Shown piece by piece: positions 16,201 to 64,000 of a DNA stretch of 64,000 nt. The notes under the pieces were generated by a model, which saw only the letters and a list, made by a program, of their open reading frames with translations, had not been told where the DNA came from and did no database searches. A program made the translations under genes and the position numbers. Source of the stretch: Xiphophorus maculatus (Eukaryota; Chordata; Actinopteri; Cyprinodontiformes; Poeciliidae); the NCBI RefSeq assembly GCF_002775205.1, contig NC_036451.1, forward strand, positions 23,300,351 to 23,364,350, in the 5' to 3' direction. Each line of letters starts with the position of its first letter. Position 1 is the first letter of the stretch.

Positions 16201-17800
16201 AATCGGATGAACGCTCCTCCGCTGTGTGGTTTGGATAGAGCCGGAGGTTTCCTGTTCTCTTAACGCAATACGTGGAGAGCTCAGGTTTGTGTTGTGTGTT
16301 TGCAGCCGTTTCAGCTCTAATGTAATCTGAATATTTAGGGTGAAGGGCATCTGCATGTTGGTGTTAAGGTCGTTTAGAGCGGGGCTGACAGAAAACCTGA
16401 TTGTTCTCTACTGTCCATATTCAGGAAGGCCTTTATGTATGAGTGAACAATGTGATCTCTGTCTGGGCCCAGCTTTGGTCAGCTGCCTCCTCTGTGGAGG
16501 GTTTTTTTTTTTTTCCCCTGCTCAGCTCGTCTCCTCCACTTCTCAATTTCACCTCTCACATTATGCATGAAAACAGGAGTGTGTACAGGTGCTGTATGTA
16601 TTATCAGCAGAGTCTGCTGACTCTGTTTACTTGGCCTACAGTTTCAGAAGTCAGAAACTGTTTTTTTTTTTATAGAGAGGTAGAGTAAGGAGTAGCAGTG
16701 CTAACGCTAATATTATTACATCTATAGGTGACTCACATTGTTTAACACTTTTCTTCCATGCTGTTGGAAAAAATCCTGTTTGGATTTATGATAAAGTAGC
16801 AAAGAGAAAAGGTTTTCATTTGTCTACATGTTTTCTTAAAATCATCATATCTCTATGTGCCTTGTTTCACATTAATGCTTCTGATTCTCTTGTCCATATT
16901 TACATTATTATGTTTTGCATTTAAATGCCCAGCTTTGCCAACATATAGCTAAAAAAATTTTAGAGCAACATTTTTAGCTCTAAAAATTTGGAGCTAAATA
17001 TTTTGGAATAATTAGCTCTAAAATCGACATTGGCCATTTTTCAACATTTTGATATCAGTCCAATTATTAAAACTGTCCTAATATGAACAACCAATATTTA
17101 CTTTTTTCTTGTTTTTACTTTGTTGCCACCTGTTTCTGGTCATTTTTCCCCCCTAAAAGTGTCACAATGATAATTGATATAAATATTGGATATATTTCAC
17201 TATCGGCCATAACAGCAATTTTAATATCGAATATTCATCAGTGCATTCCTAGAATAGTCCTTTTATTTTTCTATTCAGATAAATATCACATTGCCAAACA
17301 TACACACTGATCCCTTTTGGAATAAAACTGAAACCAAAATGGACCCAAAAACCAACCAGTTTCATCAGAGGCTTGCAGACTGTTCTTGCAGTATGAGGTC
17401 AAAATAAGGGAGGAAAAAAAATCTCCATTATAAGATCAAACTGCACACATTTTGACCCACTTGTTTCTGTCTGAAAGCGATCTTTGTTCCCTCCCCACCT
17501 TCGTCTCCCTGCAGATCTGTTCGACAACTACATGCAACAAGATGCACACGAATTCCTCAACTATCTGCTGAACACGGTGGCGGACATCCTGCAGGAGGAG
17601 AAGAAGCAGGAGAAGCAGAACGGGCGCCTGAAGAACAACGGCACGGCTGTCACCGCCGAGGCCGAGATGGAGAACAAAACGGAGCCCACATGGGTTCACG
17701 ACATCTTCCAAGGCACTCTGACCAATGAGACGCGGTGCTTAAACTGTGAAACAGTATGTAAGAGCAGAGCTTGTTTTATTTGTTTCTAATGCTGCACGGT

Positions 17801-20800: not shown

Positions 20801-21160
20801 GTTGATTTATAATTTTTTTAGAGCCACTTGTGGAGTTTCGGCAGCAGTTTCTGTAAAATTCAGTCCCGTTTTCTGTTTTCTTTTTTTCTGTGACCTCAGC
20901 GGCCCCAACAGAGGTCATTACATCACCATAGTGAAGAGCCACGGCTTCTGGCTTCTGTTCGATGACGACATAGTGGAGGTGCGTCGCTCCGCCCTCCCGC
21001 CTTTGTCCGTCCGTCCGGGCGCTCTCTGTTCTGATCACCTTCTCCCCGTGTCGTGCAGAAAATCGACGCCCAGGCCATCGAGGAGTTCTACGGACTTACC
21101 TCGGACATTTCCAAGAACTCCGAGTCGGGATACATCCTCTTCTACCAGTCGAGGGAGTGA
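10237..21160 (+). CDS. USP46: ubiquitin-specific protease 46 (USP46), 9 coding exons
   Basis: Exons: 10237-10272, 14511-14591, 15947-16160, 17515-17753, 19397-19473, 19566-19649, 19828-20025, 20900-20978, 21059-21160; all introns GT-AG, phases consistent, 369 aa (human 366). USP46 is a cysteine-protease deubiquitinase of the USP12/USP46 pair, activated by WDR48/UAF1 (and WDR20); known substrates include histones H2A/H2B, PHLPP1 and AMPA receptor subunits. Visible: Cys box FGNTCYCN with catalytic Cys44; zinc-ligand pairs Cys185/188 and Cys232/235; His box [13 protein letters not shown] with His316; Asp333 in DDDIVEKIDA. The start [12 protein letters not shown] and NEHYFGLVN identify USP46 rather than USP12. 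The variable loop after KQEKQNG (about residues 157-172) differs from mammals and accounts for the extra residues. Introns 2, 4 and 7 carry transposon remnants. The gene appears intact. Confidence 0.96.
13150..13662. mobile_element. MITE-like element, family R2 copy 2 (USP46 intron 1)
   Basis: The left end AGGAACGCACCGAGCCGCC and the right end GGTATCGGATCGGTGCATC form an imperfect inverted terminal repeat. Internal GATACAG and AGTATCGG motifs resemble the copies at 2783 and 21768. No coding capacity. Confidence 0.55.
13685..14113. mobile_element. hAT-type MITE (USP46 intron 1)
   Basis: The left end CAGCCTGTCCCAATAAATTT and the right end (read in reverse complement) CAGGCCTGTCACAATATTCA form terminal inverted repeats. 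The interior is AT-rich and contains GCAATAAACAATAATATTGT. CAGGC-type ends are typical of hAT elements. It directly abuts the R2 copy at 13150-13662. Confidence 0.6.
14885..15870 (-). mobile_element. degenerate Tc1-like element with a (TTTC)n expansion (USP46 intron 2)
   Basis: Inverted ends are recognisable: GGACCGACACAAAGTAGTG near 14905 and TTTTGTGTTGGTCCATCAC near 15815. Inside, on the minus strand, are the transposase landmarks ATGATGCTGCCACCACCATG (the HGGGSIM block, near 15299) and GACTTTGACTGGGCCATTCT (near 15148). A pyrimidine-rich, TTTC-dominated low-complexity tract at 15390-15615 has grown inside it and produces Phe/Leu/Ser-rich spurious reading frames. No functional transposase remains. 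Confidence 0.7.
17803..17881. repeat. (GT)n microsatellite in USP46 intron 4
   Basis: A run of about 79 bp of GT, interrupted once by TATG and ending in GCGCGCG, starting about 50 bp downstream of the exon 4 donor. Confidence 0.95.
18060..19345 (+). mobile_element. hAT-like element remnant with transposase N-terminus (family R3, copy 1; USP46 intron 4)
   Basis: The left end TCCTTAAAAAGCCTTAAATT and the right end AGTCTTAAATGGTGGGACCC are inverted CTTAA-rich termini. At about 18345 an ATG opens a frame reading [13 protein letters not shown], which resembles the MGKCKF start seen in fish hAT-family transposases. A matching segment occurs inverted at 37240-37400 in SPATA18. From about 18548 (AGGGTTTCCCCCAGAAAACT) a different repeat appears to be inserted inside it. 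Confidence 0.6.
20047..20365 (+). repeat. dispersed repeat family R1, copy 3 (USP46 intron 7)
   Basis: Best-preserved of the three R1 copies. It begins TTTCCATTAAAAATGTTCGC only about 20 bp after the exon 7 splice donor and runs through CTACCACTTCCCGTTGTCGT to CACTGCACTTTTGCAGAA. See the entry at 388-700. Confidence 0.7.
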
Positions 21161-21767
21161 CGCCGGTGCCGGGTCGGCGACTGAGAGAAGACTGAGTTGC
21201 TTTTTATTTACTTTTTTAGGATAAGAGACCCAGACGTTCCACATCCACTCCCTGCTCCTAACCACCTCTCTGACATGTGTGCCAATTCTCTGCTGGGTGT
21301 TTTTTTTTTTTTCTTTTTCGTTTCGTTTTTGTTTCATCTCTCCTTCTCCTTTAGTCTTTTAGTCACCTGCATCTGGACTGCACTTTACTAAGGAAAAGCA
21401 AAAACGCTCAGCACCGTGGCGTTGCTGCTGGGAGCCGCCTGCGGACGGAGAAACCTAGTAGCCTGGGGTTCTCCTGCAGGCGGTGGTCAGGAACTGAACC
21501 ATATCAGATTTAATTATGTAAGGTCCATCATGTGCCACCCAGTCATGTTTCCTCTCATTGGGGCTATTTCTGTTCCCTATTTTTCTGCTACTTTAAAGCG
21601 ACTGGATGAAGCTGGAGACAAACACTGTACGATCCGCAGAGAAATCTCAACCGGAAGCAATATCTGAGCGTTAATCCGAAGCCACCGAAGCTGTAAAATA
21701 TTAGCCAACGATCAGAACCTTCGACACTAACTGAGCCACAAACTCTAAACACTACACCTGCTTTTTA

Positions 21768-32739: not shown

Positions 32740-32877
32740 AAGTGTCATGTTTGTCACCGGTTTCTCAAACTGGTGACTGTACAAGATGTTTTTATGACTT
32801 TTTTTGTGTTTTTATGATGTAAAGCATTTTGAATCCTTGTTGCTGAAATGTGCTACACAACTGAACTTGGTTGGTTT
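32740..32877 (+). mobile_element. LINE 3'-tail fragment
   Basis: GATGTAAAGCATTTTGAATC followed by TTGTTGCTGAAATGTGCTAC and ACAACTGAACTTGG matches the typical 3' end of fish L2-like LINEs (AAAGCACTTTGAA ... GTGCTATACAAATAAACTTG). The tetranucleotide array begins exactly where the LINE tail repeat would lie. Confidence 0.55.
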
Positions 32878-33090
32878 TATGTATGTATGTATGTATGTAT
32901 GTATGTATGTATGTATGTATGTATGTATGTATGTATGTATGTATGGATGTATGTATGGATGGATGGATGGATGGATGGATGGATGGATGGATGGATGGAT
33001 GGATGGATGGATGGATGGATGGATGGATGGATGGATGGATGGATGGATGGATGGATTCATTCATTCATTCTTTGATTCATTCATTGAAAT
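32878..33090. repeat. compound tetranucleotide microsatellite
   Basis: Roughly (TATG)17 to about 32948, two transitional units, then (GGAT)25 to about 33055, then (TTCA)n-like units to about 33090. All reading frames through it are open because 4-mers without stops read through in every frame (IHPS, GWMD, MYVC repeats); these are not genes. Confidence 0.95.
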
Positions 33091-33949
33091 TAATTGTGAC
33101 CAGCTTTCCTGCCCCTGCTGAAGGCAACACTACCCTCCATATGCTGCCTCCACAATTTTTTCTAACATACTGTTTGTTCACTAATGATTTCCAACAAACA
33201 TCAGCTGTATTAAACTTACACACCAGCGGACTCTACCGGGTCTCTTCTGGTATCAGTGTTGGCTGCACTTTATTTAGGCTGCCAGGGGGAAAAAAGGGGG
33301 GGATAATAAATACAAAATGTAATACTTTGCGAGTTCGTCATCTGACAAAATGTGGGAAAGTCCAAGAGTTGTGAACACATTTTGCACGCTACACTTTGCG
33401 CAGATGTGCAAAGGATGACAGAGCGGGATGGAGCGCGGACAAATGTCCACTCTGGGGAAAAACACACGGTCCAAATCCAAAGTCGTTTTTCTTCATTTGA
33501 TTTGAAGGTTGTTACAGGGAGAGGAAGGAAGCATGAACTCGTCTCTCAGTGCCTTTGGCATCGCTCAAGAGAGAGAGAGAGAGAGAGAGGAAGGTCAGCA
33601 GTAACGCCTGTTTACTCCTTCGCGTCCATCGAGCTGATGCCCGCAGCCTCACACACCACCAGTCAGCGCCCCGGGGTGGGGCTGGTGGGGGCAGGGGGGT
33701 TGAACGCCCTGGGGAGGCACAGAGAGTCTGGAAATGAGAACAAGCAGGGTGGAGTTTGGTCATGCATGTGGTGAACTGGCGGTTCTCCACGACTTTGTCT
33801 CTCCTGCCATAAATTGTGGCGTCCTCCTCTGCAAAAAGAAAAACCTCATCCTGTTTTACTCCAGATGTGGACAACAGCCTATGTGGGTCACAGACAGAGA
33901 GCTTCTCATCCCGCTCTGTGAAAAGGGGACTCTGTCGCAGCAAAATGTC

Positions 33950-44186: not shown

Positions 44187-47100
44187 ATGGCGTCCGAGGA
44201 GGTCCGTTATGTTCTTTATTTGCTCTTCTTCTCACGTTTTATTAAGCCTTCTCATCATGTCCCACGAAAAGAGTAACCCGGAGTCATTGTTAAGTGATAA
44301 CATGTTTAGGTTAAGGTGGTTTATTTAGGGGTGGCGTGTTTTGCTCCCGTTGTTGGATGGAAATATAAGCGCAGCCTTATGAATGTCGGGCCTTCGCGTC
44401 GGATGTTTTCAAGACGTTCCGCTTGTTTTCTCTGAAAGACCTGCTGTTTGAAGGCGCGACAGTGTTTGCCATTAGGAATAGGACGCAACTTAAATGTTTG
44501 TGAGAGGAAAGGACTTCATGTCCGTTTCGTCACTAACAGGAGCGTAGTTTATTTTTAGTTATGACCACAGACAGGCTGTCGCTGAGCGTTTAACACCCAG
44601 ATATCGGAATGTTGTGATTTGGTTAAGTTTTGTCATGAGCGTTGATACTAAATAAGCTCTTAAACAAAATAAGGAAAACTCGGCTCAGTGTCGCATCTGT
44701 GTAAAGTATGGATGCCCCTGTGGCTATGTAAAACCACAGTCCAGTTTTGAATGTTAAAATTAAGTTTAGCAGTAAAAATTTATCTTGTAGTTTAATGCGC
44801 ATATTGTTGTCGCTTTGCACTTGCAGGAGAGCTCCAATGGCCCCGTGAAGAAGACCATGCGTGAGAAGGCTATAGAGAGGCGCAACATCAACAAGGAGCA
44901 CAACAGCAACTTCAAAGCGGGCTATGTACCCATCGAAGAAGAACGTCTTCATAAGACTGGGCTGAGAGGACGCAAGGGAAACATGGCTGTTTGCATCATT
45001 GTGCTCCTCTTCCTGCTCGCCTTAATCAATCTCATTGTAAGTCTCTTAGCCAGGCTGCGGCAACTTGCAAAGAAATATAACCCTTTGGACTTTCCCCCAC
45101 ACTTTCTTACAGTGCAACCAAGCTTTATTTGGGAATTGTAGTATTCCGCGTGAAAGACGGACTAAAATTAGTGTCTAATTCTGGAGCGGAAGAGCAATGA
45201 TGCATGCTTTTCAAACGATTGTTTACCAGTGCAATCTTAAAAGTGTGGCATGTGTTTGTATTTAGACCAACTTGGCGTATGCATCAGCTACAAACTGAAC
45301 CTTTTGGCCATTTTTCCTTACGAAGTGCACTAAATGTGATCATATCAGATGGAGAGCGTCTGTAGGAAGCAATTTTCAAGTTCAAATTCTCACTGAATTT
45401 AAGTTTAAACTTTATCTGGACCATAGTAACAAAAAAAACCCAGTTTAATCTTTGTTTATAATTGTTATTCTGAATGGTAGACCTCCCCTCCATTCTTACG
45501 TTTTGTGTAGCCTCAAGCAGACTTTTTGCTAGGATTCTTTACCTTTATCTGTCCTCACATTAATTATGACCAGTAGTCCCTGTTGAAGAAACACATTCCC
45601 ACTTCGTGATGCTGCCTCCGCCATGCTTCAGCATGAAGGGTGGTGTATTGAGGATGATGTGCAGTAATAGTTTTCCTCAGTAGATGACATTTTGCATGTA
45701 GGCCAATATTTTCCCATCTTACCAGAGCCCCTTCTTTATGCCTTGTTGCAAACTGCAGTCAGGACTTCTTAAGGTTTCCATTCAACAACGGTTTTCTTTG
45801 TCCCACTTTCCAAGAAAATACAGCAAAGTTGGTGCTAGTAGCTTGACAAAATGCAAAATAGCCAAATGTCTGTGCTCTACGTCTGTCTGTACAAAGTGAG
45901 CTCTGACGCGACTCCGCTATCGCTCAGATCACGCTGGTAATATGGACGGTGATCCGAATTGGCCCGAACGGCTGCGACAGCATGGAGTTCCACGAGAGCG
46001 GCCTGCTGCGCTTCAAACAGAAGGCCGACATGGGGATTGTTCATCCTTTGCACAAGAGCACGGTCGGCGGCCGCAGAGACCAGGACCTGGTCATCGTGGG
46101 CAACAACAACCCGGTAAGAAAGCATTTAAACACGTCGAGTCTTCTCCAAAGAAATTACAGCATTTGGAAACCCAGTTAGAACCTCTTGTCTGTTCTTTTG
46201 CTCCGTTGTTCCAACAGGTTGTGTTCCAGCAAGGCAACACAAAGCTGAGCGTGGAAAAGGACAAGACCTCTGTCGTCAGCGACGTCGGCATATCCTTCAC
46301 AGACCCTCGGACGCAGACAACTTTCTTCAGCACAGACTTTGAAAACCACGAGTTCCACCTGCCCAAAGGAGTCAAAGTCCTCAGTGTTAAAAAAGCGTCC
46401 ACTGAACGGGTGTGTAGGGAAGCCAGCCTCTGCTCTGACAGCTGTGTGTAAAAAAAACAACAACAAAAAACATGATTCATTAATTATATGTGGGTTTTAC
46501 AACCCGTGCAGGCGATATTGCACTTATTGCTGTCCGTAACAGTAAAAATTGATTGAAAACGAAAGAGAGATAGTAGATACTGGTCAAATTTCCCCTAGTT
46601 TCTTTGCCAAAAGAAAAGCGTGAAATGTTGTCAAGTAATGCGATTGTTAACAGGTGATTTATGCAGTTTCTGGAAAAAATTGACAGTGTGATTCCCAATT
46701 GGTGCGGTGCTAAAACAAAAGCGCATCAAGTATGAAGTAAATGAGTGAAAAAGAAGGGGGGGTCTTGGCATTTTCTGTCATGTAATCCTGATTGTATTTA
46801 GTTTTCTTGGCGAGGAACCGGTGCCTCTCTCATTTTAGTGACATATTTTGCTCTTTATTTTCAGATCACCAGCAGCGCATCATCTGATCTGAACATCAAG
46901 GGAGACACTAAGGCCATCATTCGCGGTAATGAGGGAGTGAACATCATGGGCCGCACTGTGGAGTTTAAAATGGGTGGAGACATTGAGCTTAGAGCTGTAA
47001 GTATGAAACATAATGACATGCTGTATTTATAGTGCTCAGAAACTTACATACACTCATTTTTAGCTCTCAGGGATTAATTTCAACTGCTCTAGAAGGATGA

Positions 47101-48117
47101 GACTGCTCTTGGTCATTTTATCCAGTTTCGTTCTTATGAGGAGTGCGGTTTGGGTCACACAGTTGAAACCTGGACACAGCAACAGAACAGTGGTCCCAAG
47201 CAAACATTGAAACTGGTTTTAGAATGGATAGACTAGGCCAGGGGTGGGCAACTCCAGGCCTCCAGGGCCGGTCTCCTGCAACCTTTAGATGTATCTCTAC
47301 TTCAACACACCTGAGTCAAATAATGATGTCATTAGCAGGACTCTGGAGAACTTGACTGCACTGAGGAGGTGATTCAGCTGTTGGATTCAAGTGTGTTGGA
47401 CCAGGGAGACAACTAAGAGTTGCAGGACACCGGCCCTCGAGGACCAGGATTGCCCACCTATGGACTAGGCTAATAGATTTTTGAAAAGATCTGACTGGAA
47501 ATATACAAAACCTTTGTACAACAGGCTTGAAATCAGGATCTCTGCCAGAACTGTTCCAAATGTCAAATTCCGCAATTACATGGTCACTGGAAAAGGTAGC
47601 TACTGTCCCCCCATCGGCCCACGTCTGCATGTGGCGGTTAACAATAGTCACCCTACTGTTGCCAACTTGTTGCCAACATCCTACTGCTGCCGGCAGCTCA
47701 GGATTTTAAAGATTGGTGATAGGCCAGAAAACTGCAGTCGATGCAGCCCTACCTGCTACAAAATGCAGTCAAGAAGGATTTAAATAACTATTTCAAAGCC
47801 TGAAACCAACATTCATGGTCACAATGAGGGCACACAAACCTTATACAGTCACCGTATCAAGACCAATTAAGGCCGGATCTGGAAGAATAGACGCCCTGAC
47901 AATATTTTCCTCTTTGCAGGAGAACAGCATCGTCCTCAACGGGTCAGTGATGTTCAACGCCACACGCATTCCCAGCTCCACAGACCTGACGTTCAACGAC
48001 GGCCTGGAGAGGTACAAGCTCTGCATGTGCGAAGATGGGACTCTGTTCCGCGTACTGGTGAAGTTTCCCAACATGGGCTGCCAGATCTCAGACAACCCGT
48101 GTAGGAAAGCTCACTAG
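44187..48117 (+). CDS. SGCB: beta-sarcoglycan (SGCB), 6 coding exons
   Basis: Exons: 44187-44201, 44827-45036, 45928-46113, 46218-46409, 46865-46996, 47920-48117; all phase 0, GT-AG, 310 aa (human 318). Beta-sarcoglycan is a type II membrane glycoprotein of the sarcoglycan subcomplex in the dystrophin-glycoprotein complex of muscle. Visible: a short cytosolic N-terminus (MASEE then ESSNGPVKKTMREKA; the mammalian poly-Ala run is absent); one membrane segment about residues 58-86 (NMAVCIIVLLFLLALINLI joined across intron 2 to ITLVIWTVI); a conserved extracellular domain with RIGPNGCDSMEFHESG, STVGGRR and FQQGNTKLSVE; N-glycosylation sequons at Asn252 and Asn258; and the terminal cysteine cluster Cys280, 282, 299, 306 characteristic of sarcoglycans. 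The gene appears intact. Confidence 0.97.
45595..45760 (-). mobile_element. Tc1-like fragment in SGCB intron 2
   Basis: TGATGCTGCCTCCGCCATGC, then GATGATGTGCAGTAATAG, CATTTTGCATGTAGGCCAAT and CTTACCAGAGCCCCTTCTTT follow in the order of the reverse complement of a Tc1 transposase gene. Truncated and mutated. Confidence 0.75.
47239..47462. mobile_element. hAT MITE with an 8-bp target duplication (SGCB intron 5)
   Basis: The 224-bp element is flanked by GACTAGGC at 47231-47238 and again at 47463-47470, an exact 8-bp target-site duplication as expected for hAT. The left end CAGGGGTGGGCAACTCCAGG and the right end in reverse complement CATAGGTGGGCAATCCTGGT form inverted repeats of about 33 bp with mismatches, ending in GAGGGCCGG/CAGGGCCGG. 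The family (GGGTGGGCAACTCCAGGCCT...) is very common in fish. Non-coding. Confidence 0.9.
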
Positions 48118-49680: not shown

Positions 49681-52600
49681 ATGGCGTTACGCCGCTTGTC
49701 GTTTTGGGCGGCTGTGCTGCTCCTGGCCTCCTTGGATCTCTGGTGCTCCTCTTCCTCGGCTCCCTGTCCGGAATCCTGCGTTTGCCGAGGAGCTCTGCTG
49801 CTGAACTGCTCCTCGGCTGGCCTGTCCTCGGTACCGCAGCCCGTCCAGGACCCGATCGCCGAGCTCGACTTGTCTCATAACCTCCTCAGCTCTGTCACTT
49901 TTTATCAACCGCATCCCAACCTCAGGAACCTTTGGCTGGGGAACAACAGCATCCCACACTTGTCTCTCTGCGTAGAGAGAACCGTCACGGCTCGACGTCT
50001 CGGGCGTCGCTCGGCGGCCGGGAGCGGGTCCAGGTGCCTGACCTGGGCCCCCGCCTTGCAGCTGCTATCAGCTGAGAGGAACCTGCTGGAGCGGCTGCCG
50101 CGGGGTGAGTAGGTGTTATATAATCATACACCCATCCACATTAAACATTATCAAGGTGCTTAAAGGAGAAAAGCCTGCTGTCAGCAACACGCTAAAATCC
50201 CTTAAATGCGACCTTTAGCCTTCTCTGTGGAAGCAAAATCGTGTAATTAGGAATAATTGTTTTAGCGCACTCGCCAGTGGGAGTCACTGGTTTCCATAAC
50301 AGTCCGTAAAAAATAAATGTAGCTTAGGCATTTTGTAAAGATGTAAATAAATAAAGAGTAGCACTTTGCGGTCGCGGAATCTTCAAATCAACCGTGTAGG
50401 AGACAAATTATGTTTGAGTGTAATTCCAGAAAAAAAAGCCTATTATGTTGTCACAAACAGAAACATTTTAGATTGACTGGGACTTCATCAGGAAGTGTGT
50501 GGTTTGGTCGGATGAGTCTAAGGTTGATCTTTTAGGAAACAATCACTGCAGCTGGGTTTGGTGGGTTGATGACAGAAAACTGACAACAGGTTATTTCAGT
50601 GGAATAATGAGCCAAGTCATGATGCCAAATTTACACCGAAATGGTGAGTCGATATTAGTGCATACACATAATTTCCATAAAAGGGACAAAATTATGGAGT
50701 TGAAAGCACGGCGTTCAGGGGCCACGATTCTTTTTCTCCATTTAAATCCATAGTAATGTAAATTCTTTTATTTTTAATGGCTCAGCAGCAAACAAAATAT
50801 GCAATGTTTCAATGATCAAAGTAGAAAGGAGCAACTTACTGTAGGGCTGAAATGAGGTTTTCCTTAATAAAAGAAATTCTCTCTGTTTAAAAAAGAAAAA
50901 AAGTTTTAATATACTCCCAGCAACAAAAGTGAGAAATATAATGGACGGGTGTACCCAAGTTAGTTCTTGAGTAAAAAGTTGCTGGATGTTTTTTCCTACT
51001 TACAATGATTTTAAAATGGAAACAAATTAAAAAATAAGATGGTTTGTTAAAAAAACTACTTTGTGCCTCTCCTGATATTTTCTATTTAAGAAGATGCAAA
51101 TTTGTGATTCTTGAACTGTGGTCAAGGGATGAACAAAACATTTTTCCAAGAACTGCAAATGGCCCCCAGGCTGCACTTTGAACACCCCGATCTTGAGAGA
51201 TTGTGCAAAGAAGACTGAAAAATCCCTCTCTCTGTATCATCACACTGCGTCAGCACACTATGCATGTTGCCTGAGGGGGGACGAAACATCCCAAGAATCA
51301 CTCTGTACTGTGCAAGATTATAATGTAGAAATACTCTCCAGGATTAAAGAACTGAGGATTTTTGCATACTATGTGAGTTAATGTGGGTACATTTCTAGGC
51401 CCGCTGCACACAGGATTGTGGAATATTGGTTGATAATTGTCATATGATTATGAATAATAATAATAAAACAGGTCTCTTATATTTATTTTTAGGCCATAGC
51501 ACACCCCCATTATCAACAAAAATTTTTTTATGCAGCCCTCATAAGGAACTCGTGTTTAAATATAACGTTTCTACGTAAAATAAGTCACAAAAGGAGATTT
51601 TAATGATTAATGCTGATGTCACACCTTTTTTCTCACATTAGTGTCGTTTTATAGTTGCAATTTTCCGCCTTTGTTGTCAGCTGCAAACATTATTAAAAAC
51701 CCCATACCTGATCATTGGTGAAGATAAATGACGAAAAAGGATGCTCAGGGGCGTGCCGTGGTGGCGTAGGGGTTAGCGCGGCCCACATTTGGAGGCCTCA
51801 AGTCCTCGACGCGGCTGTCGCGGGTTCGATTCCCGGACCCGGCGACGTTTACCGCATGTCTTCCCCCTTTCCTGTCAGCCTATTTCATGAAAAAGGGACT
51901 CTAGAGCCCACAAAAATACCCCCTAGAGGGGTTAAAAAAAAAAGGATGCTCAGCAATTATAGGGTTGCTTTTTTGTAATGCTATTAAATATGTTTCAATT
52001 AATTATTAAGAAGGGTCAAGATAATCTGACATGTACCTCTAAAAAAGCAAATTAGCAAGAGATGATTCATTATTAATTTTCAAAATGAGGCTAATTTTTC
52101 TTTGTTTTATTATCTTTTGAGAGCCAATATGCCCGACTCATTTCAAGGTCAAGTATATTGGTTCTTATCTGGTGCATACTCTCTGTAGAGTGGTGTAAAT
52201 CAAGGTTAAACTGACAGAACTGGACCATGAGTGACAAAATAATCAAAATGTAATATGTAATTTTAGCAGTAAATCAATGTTTAGGTAAACTAAATATTTT
52301 GGATGTTAAAATGGAGATGAATGCAGTGACCCAGTGAAGCCAGTTTGTTTTACCGAGTTCCCAGAAAGAAATGTTTTTTTTGTTAGTTTTTTTTAGGAGT
52401 GGCAGGAGAAGAACATCCATCTGATAACTTCTACGGTCACACCTTTATTTGTCGTACAGAATGGAATTAGGAAATGTCTTTGCTAAAACTGGCTAAATTG
52501 ATCAGGCTTTGGTAAAAATAAAAATAAAAAAAGAAAGAAAAGGCATAATAATTTAGTATAAATCTAAAAAAAGAAGCTTATACTCTACAATCCAAATGTG

Positions 52601-55600
52601 TATACAGCTTGTAGTTGTTCAGATTTGCCTTTCAATTCCACACACACACAAACCCTTTCTATCCTTTATCTTTAGAACTTTGCACCATGCACAAATGAGT
52701 GAACCTCCCAAGATAATAACGCCGCTGTTACAGTTATATTGACATTCCACTGGCTTAAACAAGGTGTGAGTCTGCAAATGAAATATTTATGATTTCATGG
52801 TTTCACAGGCCTCCCTGTGCTTGAACATGTTTTTCTTTCCTTGGAAAGGTTTTTCTTTTGCTTTGTACCGTTTGAAGAGCTGCTTTGAGAGTCCTGAGGC
52901 CCAGTTCTGGTTAGGTGGAGGAAAAAGGATACATAGCATTCCATTGGAAGTAGAAATATGGAAATATGAATGTGTAGCATGCATCTCTCTATCAGTTCTC
53001 CTACATCAATGCTTATAAGAACTCAAGTCTCTTGAGCTGTACCTTTACCAGATTTGCAAATGTAGAGACGGTAATCTGGTCTATTTTTCTTTGCTCCAAC
53101 TCAGTCAGATTGGATGGAGAGCACCAGTTTTCAAGCTTTGGCTGGATTCTAAATTACATTTTGTGGACTTGAATATATGTATCCAACACACAGCTCTGGT
53201 TGTTTGTCTATGGCCTACTCGAAGGTTGCCCTGGCCCAGTTTTGAGTCTTTTCCAAGTTAATTTGTTGCTTTATTTGTCCACAACAACTTCCATATATTT
53301 CCTGTTTCTTCTACCTTGCCTATAAAGTTTGAACAGGAATTGTTTTTTTTTGGCTTCCTCTGTTCTGTCTTTGTCAGTCCTCTGTTATTCTGCTCAAATA
53401 TGAACTCAAAGACAAGAGAGGATAATAAAACTGAAGTTAAATTTCGGAAATTTGATGTGTTAATGCAGGATTATCAGTGACCCTATCCCGACCTTCGAGT
53501 TTTCCCTTTGGTCTAATGTGTAAAAAAAAAAAAAAAAGTCAGTCATCACAAACTTAGGAGTAAAAACGGGATGGCAGCCTAAAATTTGCCTTCCATATCA
53601 ACACTGTGGTTAAGTCGTCTTTCTTTCAGCTGAAGCGCCGGTCAAAAATCAAGCCCCTAAATTCTAGGCACCAGCCAGACACAGTGATCCACGCTTTTAG
53701 TACCTTTTACTAGTGGATTGTTGTGACTCCACACCTCCCTGGTACAAAATGCTGCTCCATAATTTTTGACCAGTGCAGGTATACAAGAGCACATAACTCC
53801 GGTTTTTCAATGGCTTCGTGTTCAGTTTTGAATCCATTTAAAAATTCTTTTGTTAGTTTTTATGTTGTCTAATGGTCTTTTCTTTAGATCATTTGACCAG
53901 ATGCGTTTAACAGTCCAGAAGAGACAGAGCCTTTGCAGCTCTGGCTCCTAAAACGTGGAATGAGTTGCTACTAAAGGTCAGACAGGCCCTATTTATTGCC
54001 ATTTTTAAAACTCATTTAAAAAACTTATTATTTTTTAGGCTTTTAACCCAAAGTGAGCAAGCATCTGTGTCTTAATATTGCTCTCTTTCCTTGGATCTGT
54101 GATGTTTTTAAGTTCTGTTTTCTTATAGTTGTCTGGATTGTTTTGTTTTTGTCCTTCATCTTACATTTTTGCACAGCATTTTGGTCAGCTGCTACATTTT
54201 AAATGTTTTAGAAATAAAGTGGTATGGTATCTAGACACTCCTTTTGAAAATTTCTGGCCAGGTTTCTGACAACATAATGGAGCCACCATTGTGTTTTTCC
54301 ACAGTGAAGATGTGTTAAAGGTAATGTGGAGTTAATTGGTTAGGGTTAATATGAATTACAACATCATTTAATTTCCCTTAGTAATCAATAAAGTATTTTT
54401 GAATAGAATTTGAATTTTCCTTCATGACAAAAGTGGCCTGAATACAAACATCACACTTTTCATATTTTTATTTGTAATATATATTTCTACATTAAAAAAA
54501 AGTTTCTTTTTTTGTTCCACTTCAAAGTTATGCACTACTTAATGTTGAGCTTCTGCATAAAATTTCAACATATGAATGTTTGCGGTTGTAGTATGATTAA
54601 ATGTACAAAATTTTGAAAAATCTTACCTTAGAGAAGATCTTTGTTTCTTTTTGGAATCCGCTTCCTGATGATGTTGAATTTTAATTAAATCTCATTTCGT
54701 TTCTTCGAGGCCTGGATGCTGTTGAATCCTTACAGGTCCTGGAGCTGTCTTTCAACAGGATCTCAAGTCTTGAACCGGGAGTCCTTGGTGACCTTCATCA
54801 GCTGCGGGAGCTTCATTTACAGCATAACTTGATTACACATCTGGATCCACAGATGCTTCAGAATTTAGAGCAACTCCAGGTAAGCCTGGTTTTTGATGCC
54901 TATTATTCTCTGTACCAGGTGAAATGTTGAATTCTGTTAATTCAACACTTTTTAGAAAAGTGTTTGGGGTTAGGATTTACTGTTCTAACTTTAGTATAAG
55001 GCTAATTACCTCTACTTAATCTCATTCAATATTGTGTTCCTCTCAAAGGTTCTTGACCTGAGGTTCAACATGTTAACAACCATGCAGCAATTGACATACC
55101 TCACTTTGCGCGACGTTGGAGCAGATGTTAAGCTGGGTGGAAACAGGTGGCGCTGTGACTGCAACATGCGTAGTATAAGAAGGCAGATGGCTTATGACAG
55201 CACCAGAGGCATGCAGACCTGGAACATCATATGTTTTGAGCCTTCCACCGTCTCAGGCAAAGACCTTCTGCAGCTGGATGAGGAGGACCTAACATGCTTA
55301 AGCTCTGAAAACAACTTAAATCTTCACCGAGATGTGACCGTGTACAGTGGCGCTGAGATCCTGCTCTCCTGCTCAGCACAAGGTAACACATGACATACTG
55401 TATAATCAAGAGTTAATAACACAGTAAATTAACTCTTACCTTAGTCCTATTATTTTTATGCTGTTGTTTTTTTAGAGTCAGAGTGGTGGACACCCGATGG
55501 TCGAGCATCTGTGAGCCAGCAAGAAGATCGTCTGCTCATCAGTGACTTTTCAGAGGGAGATACAGGACTGTATGTGTGTATATCTGAAGAAGACCACGTT

Positions 55601-58600
55601 CTGTCTGTTTTTAACCTCCAAATCAGTAAAATGAGAGGTGCAAGACAGGAAAGAAGGTTACCCGGGGTCCGCAGTCAAACAACCCCACAAACACCTACAA
55701 GCAGGATCGCTGGAGAGACAGCTGGGGGCTTTACACACTCTGACCTGGCTTTGGCAGTGTGTCTATCGATTTTCTTCACGTTTCTGTTGGCGTTCATCCT
55801 CGGAGTCCTGGCGAGACCATGTATCGACAGGCTGTGGAGAATGGTCAGCAAAAAGAAAGACTCCCCAGCGACTCATACCGTCACTTCTGCTCAACAGAGA
55901 CATTATGACAACCAGGCCTTTTCAAATGCTGAGGAACCAGAAGAGATAGGACATTACAGGGAGAGAAGAGTCACTTTTAGTCGCATAGAGGTCACAGAGG
56001 AAAACAATGTGCAATATTATGATGCTGTTGCGAGTGGCGATCAGCAGAGCATTAGAAGCGACGAGATGTTTGAGTATCAAGAAGTCGAGGTTGACTTACA
56101 TGGGCGACCCAGGGAAAAGCAGAGTGATGACAGTAGCTCAGCTGAATTGGCTGCAGAGCGCCTGCGCAACATGGAGTTTGAACCTATTCCAGACCCAGAT
56201 GAGCTAGAGGAGAGGAGAAGCCTTTCATCATCCTCAGATTCTTCAGTATCAGACCAAACGACCAGAAAGCACACCATGCCCAAGTCTCTTCAGCTGGTAG
56301 AAGACTCGTTTCAAACGAGAGCAGATTTATCAATAGCCACAAAAACAGAAACCCCACAAATTGTGGATACAAAGGGCAAAAGTGAATATCCTGGCTCCTC
56401 TGTTCTACATACTTATAAGCCAAACACCACAGACTCTGATATTTCTCAGGGTGATGAAGAACTATTTGAATTCAGTGATGGTGCTCAAAGTCCCTCAGCC
56501 AAGACTGGCTATGATGCAAAAAGTCCAAGAGATGTACTGGAGTATTCCTCTTCCGCTTCCTCTGATTCAAGTGACAGTGACAGGGAGCCAATGCGAACTA
56601 AAATCAAACAAAAGACAAAAAAGAAGCAGAAGAAAGTTGCACAAAAATCGAAACCTGGAACAAGTTCATCTTCTTCTTCCCACAGTGAGAGCAAAGAAAA
56701 AATGACATATGATGGTAGAGGCAGAATCAACATTCAGCAGCTTCCACTACAAGAGTCCAAAACAAAACTTGATGAGTCAGCTGAACGTTGGCCTGCTGTA
56801 GATCTTCTGCACATTCCTCGTCTCAAAAGGCGTCTCGATATCAAAGCGCTGTTACCAAGTTCTGATTCATCTTCTAGTAGGGAGAGTGAGGATCTGACAA
56901 AAAATACACAAGATGAGTTAATGATAGCAAGACGCCCCACTAATGAGTCTCAAAAAGTAAGTCCTAAGCCAGGAAACCAACTGCCTGGCTTTGAACTCAG
57001 AAAAACATCAGCAAACAAGAGACCTCTTGACCCCAAAGAACCAACAGCAGGTTCAGATTCATCTTCTAGTAGTGACAGTGACCATGACATGAAAGTCCAT
57101 ATAACACAACAGAAACAAGAGGACTTGCCAAAATCAAAGTTTCCAACTAAAGTAACTGAGACGGTAACCCAGAAAGCTCCAAGCCAGTGGCCTTCAATTG
57201 ATCTTGGGAGAGTAACGAGAATAAAAAGACGTCTGGATATCAAAGCACCAAAAGCAGATTCAGATTCATCATCTAGCAGTGACAGTGAGGATGAAGCAAG
57301 AGATCAACTGATGAAACAAAAGCAAGAGGAATTGCTGATGTCAAGGCTTCCAGGTAAAGTTTCTCCAACAATGCATCCCAAACCAGAAAATCGTTGGCCT
57401 GTACCTGAACTTGGAAAAACAACCCAAATCAAGAAAAATGTGGATATCAAAGCAGCATCCACAGAGTCAGACTCATCTTCTAGTAGTGACAGTGACAATG
57501 AAAGAAAAGATTATATGACATCAAAAGAGCAAATGGAATTACATATCTCAAAAGTTCCAACTAACTTAACTACAGCAAGTCAGAAACCAAAAAGTCAGTG
57601 GCCAGTACTTGATTTTGGGAGAGTAACGAGAATAAAAAGACGTCTGGATATCAAAGCACCAAAAGCAGATACAGATTCATCATCTAGTAGTGACAGTGAG
57701 GATGAAGCAAGAGATCAACTGATGAAACAAAAGCAAGAGGAATTGCTGATGTCAAGGCTTCCAGGTAAAGTTTCTCCAACAGTGCATCCTAAACCAGAAA
57801 ATCGTTGGCCTGCACCTGAATTTGGAAAAACAATCCAAATAATGAAAAATGTGGATATTAAAGCATCATCGACAGAGTCAGACTCGTCTTCTAGTAGTGA
57901 CAGTGTCATTGAAAGAAAAGATCAAATCACACAAGAGAAGCAAGAGGAGTTATATATTTCGAAACTCCCAACCAATGTAACTACATTAACCCAGAAGCCA
58001 GCAAACCAGTGGCCTACCCTTGATTTTGGGAGAACAACAAAAATCAAACGACGTCTGGATATCAAAGCACCCACTGCAGATTCAGAGTCATCATCTAGTA
58101 GTGACAGTGAGGATGAAACAAGAGGCCATGTGATGAAACCAAAGCAAGAGGAATTGCTGATGTCCAAGCTTCCAAGTAAAGTTTATCCAACAGTACATCC
58201 CAAACCAGAAAATCATTGGTCTGCACCTGATCTTGGCAAAACAACCCAAATCAATAAACCTGTGGATATCAAAGCGCCATCAACAGATTCAGATTCGTCT
58301 TCTTGTAGTGAGAGTGACAATGAAAGAAAAGATCAAATCACACAAAAGAAGCAAGAGGAGTTATACATTTCAAAACTTCCAACTAAAGAAACTACAGTAA
58401 CCCCAAAGCCAGAAAACCAGTGGCCAACCATTGATTTTGGCAGAGTAAAACGGATCAAAAGACGTCTGGATATCAAAGCACCCACCGCAGATTCAGATTC
58501 ATCTTCCAGTAGTGACAGTGAGGATGAAACAAGAGGCCATGTAATGAAACCACACCAAGAAGAATTGGTGATTTCACAGCTTCCAGGTAAAGTTCCTCCA

Positions 58601-61600
58601 ACAGTGCGTCCAAAACCAGAAAATAATTGGTCTGCACCTGATCTTGGCAAAACTACCCAAATCAAGAAACCTGTGGATATCAAAGCATCATCAACAGACT
58701 CATCTTCTAGTAGTGACAGTGGTGATGACATGAAAGACCACATAAAACAAAAGAAGCAAGAGAAGACGCATATCTCAAAACATCCAGTTAATGTAACTAC
58801 ATCAACCCAAAAGCCAGCAAACCAGTGGCCTACCCTTGATTTTGGGAGAACAACAAAAATCAAAAGACGTCTGGATATCAAAGCACCCACTGCAGAGTCT
58901 GAGTCATCATCTAGTAGTGATAGTGAGTATGAAACAGAAGGCCATGTGATGAAACCAAAGCAAGAGGAATTGCTAATGTCCAAGGTTCCAAGTAAAGTTT
59001 ATCCATCAGTACATCCCAAACCAGAAAATAATTGGTCTGCACCTGATCTTGGCAAAACAACCCAAATCAAGAAACTTGTGGATATCAAAGGATCATCAAC
59101 AGATTCAGATTCATCTTTTAGTAGTGACAGTGACAATGAAAGAAAAGATCAAATCACACAAAAGAAGCAAGAGGAGTTATACATTTCAAAACTTCCAACT
59201 AATGTAGCTACATCCACCCAAAAGCCAGCAAGCCAGTGGCCTTCCCTTGATTTTAGGAGAACAACAAAAATCAAAAGACGTCTGGATATCAAAGCACCAA
59301 AAGCAGATTCAGATTCATCATTTAGTAGTGACAGTGAGGATGAAACAAGAAGTCATGTTTTGAAACCAAAGCCAGAAGAATTGCTGACATCCAAGCTTCC
59401 AAGTAAAGTTTATCCATCAGTACATCCAAAACCAGAAGATAATTGGTCTGCACCTGATTTTGGCAAAACAACCCAAATCAGGAAACCTGTGGATATTAAA
59501 GCATTATCAACAGATTCAGATTCATCTTCTAATAGTGACAGTGACAATGAAAGAAAAGATCTAATCACACAAAAGCAGCAAGAGGAGTTATATATTTCGA
59601 AACTTCCAACTAATGTAACTACATCCACCCAAAAACCAGCAAGCCAATGGCCTACCCTTGATTTTGGGAGAACAACAAAAATCAAAAGACGTCTGGATAT
59701 CAAAGCACCAAAAGCAGATTCAGAGTCATCATCTAGTAGTGACAGTGAGGATGAAACAAGAAGTCATGTTTTGAAACCAAAACCAGAAGAATTGCTGACA
59801 TCCAAGCTTCCAAGTAAAGTTTATCCAATAGTACATCCAAAACCAGAAAATAATTGGTCTACACCTGAACTTGGCAAAACAACCCAAATCAAGAAACCTG
59901 TGGATATTAAAGCATTATCAACAGATTCAGATTCATCTTCTAGTAGTGACAGTGACAATAAAACAAAAGATCAAATCACACAAAAGAAGCAAATGGAGGT
60001 ACATATCTCAAAACCTCTAACTAACGTAACTACAGCAACTCAAAAGCCAGCAAACCAGTGGCCTTCCCTTGATTTTGGGAGACTAACACGACTCAAAAGA
60101 CGTCTGGACATCAAAGCACCTACAGCGGATAAAGATTCATCATCTAGTAGTGACAGTGAGGATGAAACAAGAGGCCATGTAATGAAACAAAAGCAAGAGG
60201 AATTGCTGATGTCCAAGCTTCCAAGTAGAGTTTATCCAACAGTACATCCCAAACCAGAAAATCGTTGGTCTGCACCTGATCTTGCCAATATAACCGAAAT
60301 CAAGAAAAATGTCGAAATCAAACCAACATCAACAGATTCAGATTCGTCTTCTAGTAGTGACAGTGACAATGAAAGAAAATATAAAATCACACAAAAGCAG
60401 CAAGAGGAGTTATACATTTCAAAACTCCCAACTAATGTAACTACATCCACCCAAAAACCAACAAACCAGTGGCCTACCATTGATTTTGGAAGAGTAACAC
60501 GAATCAAAAGACGTCTGGATATCAAAGCACCCAAAGCAGATTCTGATTCATCTTCCAGTAGTGACAGTGAGGATGAAACAGGAGTGAAAAAACAAGAGGA
60601 ATTGCTGATTTCACAGCTTCCAGCTGAGGTTCCTACAACAGTTTGTCCTAAACCAGATAATTGTTGGTCTGTACCTGATCTTGGAAAAACAAAAGAATTC
60701 AAGAATCCTGTAGTTCCTAGGACACAATCAACAAACTCTGATTCATCTTCTGGTAGTGACAGTGATAGTGAAAAAGACAAAATGACAAAACTGAAACAAG
60801 AAGATTTACTAATATCAAAGCAGCCAGTTCAAACAAGCCAAAAAGCAAGTCAAAAGCAAGGAAACCAATGGCCTTCCCTTGATCTTTGGAAAATAAGACA
60901 ATTTAAAAGACGTCTTGATATCAAAGCACCAGCAGCAGATTCAAATTCATCTTCTAGCAGTGACAGTGAGGATGAAACAAGTGGGCATGTGGTACAACAA
61001 AAACAAGAGGAACTGCGGATGTCAACGTCTTCTACCAAGATGACAACAAAGGTAAAATTGGAAAATCAATGGCCTTCATCTGTTCTTGGCAAAACATACA
61101 TCAAGAGTCCTCTAGATATTAAGGTACCATCTCCAAGTTCTGACTCATCTTCAAGCAGTGAGGATGAGACAAGAGGTCACATGAAAACACAAAAGCAAGA
61201 AGAATCACTAATCTTAAGGAATTCAGCTGACATAACTCAATCATTAAGATCTAACTCAGAAAATCAATGGCCTACCCTGGATCTTGGACAAATACCAAGT
61301 ATTCAAAGACGTCTAGATATCAAAGCTGCTGTTCCTCGTGAATCATTGTTGAAAGTTGACAGAGAGAGAAACCTTGAAGGAGTCAAGCCATCCTTAACCA
61401 GACAGGTACATGATAAAGCTTCATCACCATTGCTACAATTGGGTCTCAACAGCAAATCAAACAAGTTTAAAAAATCTGAATCACAATCATCCAGTAGTGA
61501 AAGTGAGGATGAGAACAGAGACCAGAAAGCTAAAAACAGAAAAGATCAAACCTTTACATCAACAGCCTCAGAGAAATTAATAAGGTTTCAAATAGCTCCT

Positions 61601-63154
61601 GGGATATACATTCCTTACAATCCAAAGACAGACCACAACATTAAATTGGAAAAGTATACTGATATTTCAGGTGACCTGGAGGACATGCCAACAAATGACA
61701 CCAGCAGAACAACACTTGAGGTAGACCCAGAGCTTCAGTCAAGATGGGCCACAATGAATCTTGGAGTCTCCCGCTTCCGAAAGCATCTCGAAATCTCATC
61801 CCATGCAACAGAATCCGATCTGAACTCCCCAGCAGACTCTTCTTTCACCTCCGGCAGTGAAAGTGGATCTGGGAGAAGACAAAGACTAAGGAGAAGGTTT
61901 GTTGGGATCCAAGAAACACACAAAAGCTCGTCTCCAGAGCTGGAAAATGTTCAACTAAATGTGTCTCCAACTCCAAAGAGTCCAGAAGACACGTTCACTT
62001 TCTCAGATATAGTTAAACAGAGAATAAATAAAAATCACAGTGATAAAGATTCAAGTAGTCCATCAAAGCAGAGCTCTAATTCCTCTTCTAGCAGTGACAG
62101 TGAGGATGAGACAAAAGACCACAGTGTTATTGACCTGAGTCGTGGTGTTCCACGCATTAAGAGGCGTTTAGATATCAAGGCACCGTCTCCAGAGCCAAGT
62201 AATACCCCACCTTTTCTCATTGGAAATGAAGACTTGACAGAGCACAATGCATTGCAAAGCACACAAGCATCAACTATCATTGGACCAACAGATGAATCGC
62301 TTATCACTTATAAGCGATCTATTTTCAAATCCTTATCACTACCAAGTAGTTCTTTCACACCGAATGGCAGCCGTCAGACTGTCAGCTATATCCCCAATCT
62401 TTCAAAAGATGGGTCAAATGACAAGGATACGTCTCTTTCTTCAAAGGCCCCAAAAAGTACAAGCTTTGATGACATCATAAAGAGGAGACTGAGACCATCC
62501 AGATCCAAGACCGATGGAGACCTGATGGAAAAAATAAAATGGACTCATGTTGGTCATCATTTGCCTGACCTTTCAAGCTCCAAATCACGAGAAGGAGTGG
62601 ATGTAACGTCCAAATCTCTGCCGCAAGCTTCATTCACAGAGCTAACTTCTCCCTCAAACGATTCTGAAAGTAGTACAACTGCCTTTAGCATATTGCAGCT
62701 CAGCAAGAAGTCAGATGCAACACAAACACACAAATATTCATCACTTGGTCCGGAAGTCGCACCCTCTCCCTCCGGTGATGTTCTCCGTGTGCTTGGAAAC
62801 TCGTCCCAAAGGACACCAGAAATTCAGAGGGCTGCATTAGGGGACAAGAATGAGAGAAAAGGCCTGAGTGCCCTAAAAGCCATGTCACGAGACAGGAGAA
62901 ACTGGGAGGGGGATGAAGATAGACATCTTGTGTTTGATACACAAGATGGCAGCATCTCCAGTCACAGCCAGTCTGAAAAAGACAAAGTCTTGTCTCAACA
63001 GTCTCAAATTCATTCTCCTTCTGCGAGTGAGTCGAAAAAAGACATGGATTTGTTGCTGTTGTACGGTGTTCCCCGCTACAAGAGACATGGTATTGGGGAC
63101 TCATTGACAGAGACTTCACGTCCTGATCCAGCTACACCTCAGCAAGATGACTGA
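49681..63154 (+). CDS. LRRC66: LRRC66-like LRR-Ig transmembrane protein with a giant repeat tail, 4 coding exons
   Basis: Exons: 49681-50104, 54710-54879, 55049-55382, 55476-63154; phases 1, 0, 1; 2868 aa (human LRRC66 about 880). Function is unknown in any species. Visible: signal peptide about 1-27 (Kozak GCCATGG); LRR N-cap CPESCVC; leucine-rich repeats (ELDLSHNLLSSV, NLRNLWLGNNSI, VLELSFNRISSL, ELHLQHNLITHL, VLDLRFNMLTTM); LRR C-cap with Cys234, 236, 260, 281; an Ig-like domain about 290-361 (Cys306, Trp313/314, DTGLYVC ending at Cys344); one membrane helix about 399-421 (SDLALAVCLSIFFTFLLAF), followed by ARPCIDRLW, which matches my recollection of human LRRC66 (DLALAVCLSVFITFLVAF, RPYVDRLW). 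The Ser-rich cytoplasmic tail, residues 422-2868, is mostly a tandem repeat. Identity also rests on position beside SGCB. Alternative: another LRR-Ig family member such as LRRC53, less likely given synteny. Confidence 0.88.
50460..50640 (+). mobile_element. Tc1-like transposase fragment
   Basis: The translation reads MVWSDESKVDLLGNNHCSW, matching the conserved 'VWSDESKIELFG' block of Tc1/mariner transposases, including the Asp of the second catalytic region. Later sequence has decayed. Confidence 0.8.
51749..51938 (+). mobile_element. tRNA-derived SINE with a perfect target duplication
   Basis: RNA polymerase III promoter boxes are visible: an A box in GTGGCGTAGGGGTTAGCGC (about 51760-51778) and a perfect B box GGTTCGATTCC (about 51823-51833). 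A tRNA-unrelated body follows (CATGTCTTCCCCCTTTCCTG, TGAAAAAGGGACTCTAGAGC) and an A-rich tail. The element is flanked by exact 15-bp copies of AAAAAGGATGCTCAG (51734-51748 and 51939-51953). The intact duplication implies a recent L1/L2-type retroposition. Confidence 0.92.
53095..53300 (-). mobile_element. Tc1-like fragment
   Basis: CAGTCAGATTGGATGGAGAG and, further on, GAAGGTTGCCCTGGCCCAGT follow the reverse complement of the Tc1 transposase 3' part. Highly diverged. Confidence 0.55.
53620..54235 (+). mobile_element. LINE reverse-transcriptase C-terminal remnant with 3' tail
   Basis: Broken translation retains the C-terminal pattern of fish L2/Rex-like LINEs: WIVVT (from 'IDYCNSLL'), then after TCATTTGACCAGATGCGTTT a stretch corresponding to 'APKTWNELPLKVRQAPSIAIFKTHLKTYLF' with frameshifts (ACGTGGAATGAGTTGCTACT, TTTTTAAAACTCATTTAAAA). 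It ends with GCACAGCATTTTGGTCAGCT and GTTTTAGAAATAAAGTGG, a typical LINE 3' tail. Confidence 0.65.
56786..61330 (+). repeat. LRRC66: coding tandem array in LRRC66, 411-bp (137-codon) period
   Basis: Higher-order repeat of two related half-units. A units (about 69 aa) begin QWPxxDFGR, carry TRIKRRLDIKAP, then SDSSSSSDSEDE, then KQEELLMSKLP and HPKPEN. B units (about 68 aa) begin (N/R/H)WSAPDLGK, carry TTQIKKPVDIKA, then SDSSSSSDSDNERKD, then QEELYISKLPTNVTT and QKPAN. A-unit starts: 56786, 57185, 57596, 58007, 58418, 58823, 59234, 59645, 60056, 60467, 60866, 61265; seven of the eleven spacings are exactly 411 and the others are 399, 405, 399 and 399, all multiples of 3. It encodes about residues 747-2260. 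Outer units are more diverged than central ones. Confidence 0.97.
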
Positions 63155-64000
63155 AGAGGGCAAAAGGTGGGGATCTCCTTAATAAAGAAAAGATCCTGCT
63201 GGTAGAAAAAGTAAAAGTATGAGCAGGTGTGAAATCAGGAAGAACTGGCAGCCAATTGGAGTTTTTTTTTTTTTTTTAAGTATGCACATTATTTTTAAGT
63301 GTAAATTATTACAACTGTATAAGCTTTGAAATGACATGTCAATATTTGTGACTAGTAGTTTTAGGAGCAGCCAACCTCAATTATGTTTAATGTTTGAAAC
63401 AGTTTTTGGTTGTCACTTTAAAATGATCAAGACACTTTCAAATCAAGTTCACTATGAGATCATTTATACTCCTACCTACATTAAAACAATTTCCTAAAGC
63501 AGAAATAGAGCCTGAGTATTTGTAAAGAGGTGGACTGTAATAGTAATGTCTGTTGTACTTTTTCCCCCCCAAACATCCTATATAGTCAGAGAATCCAGGT
63601 ATCAGCCAGTAAGTTAATAAACCTTTTTATTTATGTGTATAGACATTGGTTATAGTGAAAACAAACATATAGACACTTATTGTTTACATACATATTTACA
63701 GTCGGGACAAGGCTGTTCATCCTCCTGCATTTTCATTGGAGAATACTAAAAGATTTATCTCTACACAGTATTTGGTAAGCAATGAAACAGTTAAATCCAG
63801 TTTTTGCTAATGGTGGAGATCCCCAATGGAATCGTATGTGTGTGATCTAACGACTGATTTTTATGTGCATCATAACAACTGCAGAATTTTTTTTTATATA
63901 TATGTATATATAAAAAAAATATATATTGCATGAACTTCAAAATAAAATAAGAGTCTTCACACCGGTTGCAGCTGTCTTATTACTCTCTACATAATGATGC
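63155..64000 (+). other. LRRC66: LRRC66 3' untranslated region
   Basis: AT-rich sequence after the TGA (63152-63154). AATAAA hexamers occur at 63181-63186, 63616-63621 and 63941-63946. The last is preceded by TATATATAAAAAAAATATAT and followed by T-rich sequence, and is the most likely end. No further gene is visible before the window ends. Confidence 0.6.
63941..63946 (+). terminator. LRRC66: candidate distal polyadenylation signal of LRRC66
   Basis: AATAAA in the context CAAAATAAAATAAGAGTC. Two weaker-context hexamers lie upstream at 63181 and 63616. Confidence 0.45.

Follow-up and report, generated by a model that had tools for sequence, protein, structure and literature searches.

A giant tandem-repeat tail with a preserved seven-residue motif on a likely LRRC66 orthologue of Xiphophorus maculatus

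Coding minisatellites are tandem-repeat disordered regions. Among docking systems built on short motifs, the RxL class binds to the hydrophobic patch of cyclins (PMC8728146), with PVKRRLDL as the version found in E2F1 (PMC4381256), and the acidic cluster of furin, with its two CK2 serines, binds PACS-1 (PMC3743005; here and below, statements taken from cited papers refer to excerpts of them). For LRRC66, a leucine-rich repeat (LRR) protein, one paper gives the function as 'Unknown' (PMC4388690) and another names general roles that include cell adhesion and trafficking (PMC7849149); the zebrafish gene, termed functionally uncharacterized, is listed as induced by pneumococcal infection (PMC9858863); in the excerpts of the LRRC66 literature, there is no account of a repeat tail or of a partner, and a search of the literature for teleost LRR receptors with repeat tails returned no paper that fits this description in full. 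The subject of the present analysis is a gene that resembles LRRC66 in its neighboring genes, its LRRs and its single membrane segment, located in a stretch of 64,000 nucleotides of the Xiphophorus maculatus genome (hereafter, the window; NC_036451.1, positions 23,300,351 to 23,364,350, forward strand), the last exon of which, exon 4, encodes a giant, mostly repetitive tail. The tail appears to be a repeat-grown, disordered, multivalent docking platform on LRRC66, a reading to which we assign a probability of roughly 0.55.

Exon 4 spans 7,679 bp and, after two bases that complete a split codon, remains open up to the TGA codon at 63152-63154. The four-exon model (Table 1) encodes a protein of 2868 amino acids, with GT/AG at all junctions, phases 1, 0 and 1, and the start codon in the context GCCATGG; it is the only one of the four splice combinations tried that is open throughout, and other junction choices tried earlier yielded no fully open frame. 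The first-pass annotation had described exon 4 as a single open frame that adds a tail of about 2450 residues to an LRRC66-type receptor, and this description holds, with an in-phase splice to the three upstream exons and a measured tail length of 2446 residues; according to the same annotation, the human protein has about 880 residues altogether. The numbers of stop codons expected are 18.9 in the membrane-proximal tail (residues 423-747), 96.5 in the repeat array (748-2258) and 31.6 in the C-terminal tail (2310-2868), compared with none observed in each, and the other two forward frames contain, respectively, 6 and 31, 73 and 168, and 23 and 45 stops. Chance is ruled out as the source of the long open frame.

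The tandem array accounts for 64% of the tail, a share that is therefore owed to the duplication of copies. Tandem Repeats Finder (TRF) detects periods of 411 bp (9.7 copies) and 207 bp (19.5 copies), and cutting at the anchor W-[PS]-x-x-[DE]-[LF], with three looser anchors for odd units, produces units of about 68-69 residues. The first-pass annotation had left unresolved both this array and the order within it, in which two unit types alternate, so that an A+B pair comprises 137 codons: the odd units (A) typically carry KRRLDIKAP followed by SSSSSDSEDE, and the even units (B) typically KKxVDIK followed by SSSSSDSDNERKD. Units 1-2 and 20-23 are divergent, with the last one retaining QRRLDIK but degenerating after the heptad and lacking the acidic cluster. 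In its in-frame, head-to-tail units and divergent ends, the array resembles coding minisatellites, from which it differs in the higher-order A/B period of two units and in the presence of one well-kept motif in A only. A search of the 704-Mb genome with one 411-base stretch, which gives a lower bound because only the best candidates were scored and very common words were skipped, found 12 of 12 matches inside exon 4, which makes a mobile element unlikely. Because the frame is known from DNA alone, in a single genome assembly, one could suspect a falsely expanded assembly or a spurious, untranscribed frame; this is hardly credible given that the frame bears the marks of selection described below and that the 10 unit pairs, which are 48-85% identical in protein sequence to a reference pair, differ from each other, so that false duplication is unlikely.

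A further copy of the heptad lies beyond the array and is identical to the others as protein; at the DNA level, it is 76% identical to that of unit 3, with five silent base differences, compared with 40% identity of the flanking DNA. Two other stretches outside the array, RKHLEIS (residues 2411-2417; 61778-61798) and KRHGIG (residues 2845-2850; 63080-63097), could be remnants of earlier heptad copies that have since degenerated. On the minus strand, open frames at 58333-58983 (216 aa) and 60232-60780 (182 aa) mirror the array and are most likely a by-product of the repeat composition. When a 40-residue peptide resembling the A unit was compared with Protein Data Bank sequences, all 32 matches were antibody chains (best E 0.22), and these were judged to be due to chance; a search of viral contigs for sequences related to the A+B unit gave 14 stretches that fit a pattern, with none confirmed.

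The frame of the array is under selection. Measured against the A and B consensuses, the 17 core units carry 314 substitutions, none of which makes a stop, with 13.05 stops expected and none of 2000 simulations stop-free, and the number of replaced codons is 176, compared with the expected 222 +/- 7. The pooled pairwise Nei-Gojobori ratio of nonsynonymous to synonymous substitution rates (dN/dS, or omega) is 0.48 for the nine core A units and 0.52 for the eight core B units.

Within the A units, the heptad stands out. Odd units were set by register, not by motif, and the isolated copy at residues 2538-2544 was excluded because it had been found by its motif; each distinct codon state was counted once per column, a replacement scoring one and a silent state the number of bases by which it differs. 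In the heptad of the 12 odd units, there are 6 silent states and 1 replacement state, compared with 40 and 131 for all other positions of these units (Fisher P=0.0013); the heptad count deviates from the neutral rate as well (P=0.0007). At the same positions in the 11 even units, there are 5 silent and 15 replacement states (P=0.0087 versus the odd-unit heptad), and the B units lack comparable preservation. Among windows of seven columns, RRLDIKA scores best, having no replacement state and 8 silent ones. When unit 23 is set aside, the longest stretch free of variation in the remaining 11 A units is KRRLDIKA (P=0.00055 by column shuffling); in the nine core A units alone, it spans nine columns (P=0.020, same procedure). 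The heptad is exact in 11 of the 12 units in the A register, the deviation being the Q in place of K in unit 23, and positions 1-3 show no K/R exchange in any of them, with L, D and I kept. A count over 13 copies chosen for carrying the motif (10 silent states, 1 replacement) is biased by that choice and was discarded in favor of the register-based count.

The composition of the tail bears out the first-pass description of a segment almost devoid of hydrophobic stretches in which CK2-type serine clusters alternate with basic patches. The net charge is +6 (382 K/R, 376 D/E), serine makes up 15.9% of the residues, and the most hydrophobic 19-residue window has a mean of only 0.34. KRRLDIK occurs 12 times and SSSSSDS[ED] 14 times, whereas 200 shuffles of the same composition average 0.00 for either, and the looser pattern [ST]xx[DE] is also in excess (125 versus 88.4 +/- 7.2). 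The tail is probably intrinsically disordered: its hydropathy of 0.377 falls under the Uversky boundary of 0.414 and, as weak evidence, an AlphaFold2 model of one A+B unit pair has a mean predicted local distance difference test score (pLDDT) of 59.1 and a predicted template-modeling score (pTM) of 0.13; DSSP run on this model returned nothing.

Such a chain could, in principle, act through bulk alternating charge, attaching to the membrane via phosphatidylinositol 4,5-bisphosphate (PIP2) or condensing, with CK2 as the switch and the exact motif irrelevant. The mean net charges per unit (n=23), +3.7 for the basic segment and -3.7 for the acidic one, and the excess of S[DE]x[DE] sites (45 versus 9.0 +/- 3.0 in shuffles) agree with this possibility, but charge alone is insufficient because it predicts free exchange of K and R, which is absent from the 12 A-register units, where, moreover, L, D and I are kept and an acidic D persists within the basic patch; we consider this explanation improbable. 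Of the earlier proposal, the charge-alternating layout is supported, together with disorder, and a phospho-regulated scaffold role may apply; the selection pattern favors a specific docking heptad over bulk charge. The acidic clusters could also make this a sorting tail of the furin kind: SDSEDE segments phosphorylated by CK2 would recruit PACS-type adaptors and thereby direct the traffic of the receptor among the cell surface, the Golgi and endosomes. The serines followed by D/E runs on the tail of a single-pass protein, with acidic serine sites in 20 of the 23 units (by the pattern used for the charge count), resemble the PACS-1 cargo (PMC3743005); the difference is that here there are about 20 tandem copies, each adjoining a basic segment. 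Neither the need for some 20 clusters nor the basic heptad, which is kept more strictly than the clusters, is explained by sorting, which makes this scenario quite improbable.

In a predicted disordered chain, one seven-residue word is kept while the rest drifts, and it is on this pattern that the docking-platform reading is based; being unusually well preserved, the heptad is probably a docking site. The last exon would have grown as a unit of ~69 codons was duplicated repeatedly and in frame, in the form of the 137-codon A+B pair. Each A unit would then display to a folded partner one linear motif with the core RRLDIKA, usually preceded by [IL]K, and the resulting set of about 12 copies would be spaced by CK2-type acidic serine clusters, the phosphorylation of which may tune binding or self-association. 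The B units could serve chiefly as spacers, and copy number would set the avidity for the partner beneath the clustered receptor. We rate the locus as a known receptor gene in which the expansion of a coding tandem repeat, one motif of which is preserved, lengthened the tail. If this is correct, the ~12 preserved heptads on the inner tail offer a concrete bait for a partner of LRRC66, the array would be a natural experiment on the effect of repeat number on avidity, and the comparison of the kept A heptads with the freer B heptads suggests a route to docking motifs from a single genome.

Several observations weigh against the docking platform. The units are not independent, so that conversion and duplication can spread a single copy of the motif, and their shared descent by duplication makes the P values for the heptad indicative only; if the background omega is set to 0.5, the count for the heptad reaches only P=0.011. 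The adjacent A pair 13/15 has an omega of 1.97, which comes from one silent change, and the AlphaFold2 model was built on 11 rows alone. Beyond the heptad, the ratio of replacement to silent changes, by the distinct-state count, is 0.90 in A units, with 1.07 for B units; these near-neutral values imply that most of the array is little constrained and may be a passive spacer. The same values fit the alternative that a coding minisatellite grew, neutrally or with slightly deleterious effect, within a tolerant disordered tail, such that the original tail is functional, the extra units are passengers and a stop would be selected against for costing the C-terminal part. The head-to-tail arrangement of the copies and the low G+C content at third codon positions in the array (0.27 for 56789-61321; the flanking parts of the tail have 0.38-0.39 and the ectodomain 0.60) point in the same direction. 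This explanation is nevertheless somewhat unlikely: the heptad is exact in nearly all A-register units despite silent drift, the isolated copy has retained it amid dissimilar flanks, although that copy was found via the motif, and the pooled pairwise dN/dS of the core units is about 0.5.

If the heptad of the docking platform is compared with known motifs, the closest likeness is to the cyclin-docking RxL class (ELM DOC_CYCLIN_RxL_1), with KRRLDI in the tail and KRRLDL in E2F1 separated by one I/L exchange (PMC4381256), and all 12 exact KRRLDI copies, which lie in a predicted disordered region, show the pattern R-x-L with a hydrophobic residue after it. It can be imagined that the tail works as a polyvalent trap for cyclins, tethered to the membrane, in which ~12 E2F1-like motifs, tuned by flanking CK2 clusters, keep cyclin-CDK (cyclin-dependent kinase) complexes at the cell surface or let them go upon receptor engagement; an epithelial or immune LRR receptor would then be tied directly to cell-cycle control, with the strength set by the repeat number. 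This is a long shot: RxL-like words are common, the tail differs from the known cases in belonging to a membrane protein with about 12 copies, and, unlike a CDK substrate, it is depleted of SP/TP sites, though these are present (26 versus 41.8 +/- 5.2 in shuffles), which has no bearing on a non-substrate anchor. The cyclin D-CDK dimer also can dock RxL motifs, with the patch probably occupied by p27 in cells (PMC12871278, preprint).

The gene that carries the tail is likely the orthologue of LRRC66, as follows from the USP46-like, SGCB and DCUN1D-like neighbors together with the LRR architecture, so that the receptor type proposed in the first-pass annotation is borne out by the neighboring genes and by the layout of LRRs, a putative immunoglobulin (Ig)-like domain and a single membrane segment. 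The USP46-like exon and SGCB lie upstream on the same strand; in human, LRRC66 and SGCB presumably share a strand as well. For SGCB, the Sarcoglycan_1 cut-off is passed by 46215-46448 and 47788-48114 and missed by 44791-45138 (25.3 versus 32.5 bits), and the last exon matches beta-sarcoglycan chains; a second USP46 candidate stretch, 20802-21221, had no Pfam match. Downstream, 3.7 kb beyond the window and on the opposite strand, there is a DCUN1D-like Cullin_binding match (31.5 bits, cut-off 27.9); because it is partial, with one internal stop, the exact DCUN1D gene is not settled, and five more Cullin_binding matches occur elsewhere in the genome. The position between SGCB and the DCUN1D-like match fits the human gene order, in which DCUN1D4, LRRC66, SGCB and SPATA18 are grouped (PMC10497502, which does not name USP46 in the excerpt, and PMC4388690); for salmon, LRRC66, SGCB, DCUN1D4 and USP46 appear in one long gene list that does not give gene order (PMC6786245).

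The spliced ectodomain matches Pfam LRR_8 with E=6.1e-16; exon 1 matches LRR_4 (E=1.4e-4) and LRRNT (E=0.031), neither of which reaches Pfam's cut-off, and exon 3 searched alone has no Pfam match. In the Ig-like region, Ig_5 (E=5.2e-5; 24.0 bits, cut-off 27.3) and Ig_3 (E=7.6e-4; 20.4 bits, cut-off 30) fall below threshold, and the Cys/Trp/DxGxYxC pattern before the membrane segment is one we take to be the Ig signature. There is a single membrane segment in the 2868-residue protein, and the basic residues that follow it suggest that the C-terminus is cytoplasmic. Exon 3 matches five other loci in the genome (28-35% identity, E 4.8e-6 to 6.8e-4), which were rejected as paralogues and taken to be general LRR C-caps; genome searches with the membrane-proximal stretch, membrane segment included, and with the C-terminal tail matched only their own locus.

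Table 1. Features of the LRRC66-like gene and its surroundings; positions are those of the window.
Feature	Positions	Strand	Basis or remark
USP46-like exon	17475-17786	+	E 2.4e-39 to USP46, 2.3e-36 to USP12
SGCB (beta-sarcoglycan) exons	44791-48117	+	Pfam Sarcoglycan_1; beta-sarcoglycan chains
Exon 1: start codon, signal peptide (by eye), LRR N-cap, first LRRs	49681-50104	+	in-phase model; Pfam
Exon 2: LRRs	54710-54879	+	Pfam LRR_8 E=6e-14; splice model
Exon 3: last LRR, LRR C-cap (by eye), start of Ig-like domain	55049-55382	+	splice model
Exon 4: remainder of Ig-like domain, membrane segment, entire (presumed) cytoplasmic tail, stop	55476-63154	+	
Membrane segment, residues 400-422	55745-55813	+	every 19-residue Kyte-Doolittle window >1.6 overlaps it (residues 395-427)
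Membrane-proximal unique tail, residues 423-747	55814-56788	+	contains RVTF
Tandem array, 23 units, A/B alternating, residues 748-2309	56789-61474	+	TRF; anchor-based cutting
First KRRLDIK heptad, unit 1, residues 760-766	56825-56845	+	later copies in odd units through 21
Unique C-terminal tail, residues 2310-2868	61475-63151	+	open frame; genome match at own locus alone
Isolated KRRLDIK beyond array, residues 2538-2544	62159-62179	+	heptad identical as protein
AATAAA polyadenylation-type signal	63181-63186	+	starts 27 bases past stop

Some other candidates in exon 4 were rejected. The RVTF at 55967-55978 resembles a PP1-docking motif; an RVxF-like expression has four matches, at three sites, in the tail, compared with 1.7 +/- 1.4 matches in shuffles, which is not significant. 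Flu_PB2_3rd scores 38.1 bits for the whole protein (cut-off 27; E 1.7e-9) with no single significant stretch and is regarded as noise summed over the repeats, as are F5_F8_type_C_2 and A_deaminase_N, both below the Pfam cut-off.

Elsewhere in the window, intron 1 contains, at 51755-51935, the tRNA-like box sequences GTGGCGTAGGGGTTAGCGC ... GGGTTCGATTCCCGG, the first of which has one match within the window; ARAGORN called no tRNA, and the stretch resembles a tRNA-derived short interspersed nuclear element. At 32792-33374, short tandem repeats, of the tetranucleotide type as judged from the translations, give rise to long low-complexity frames on both strands.

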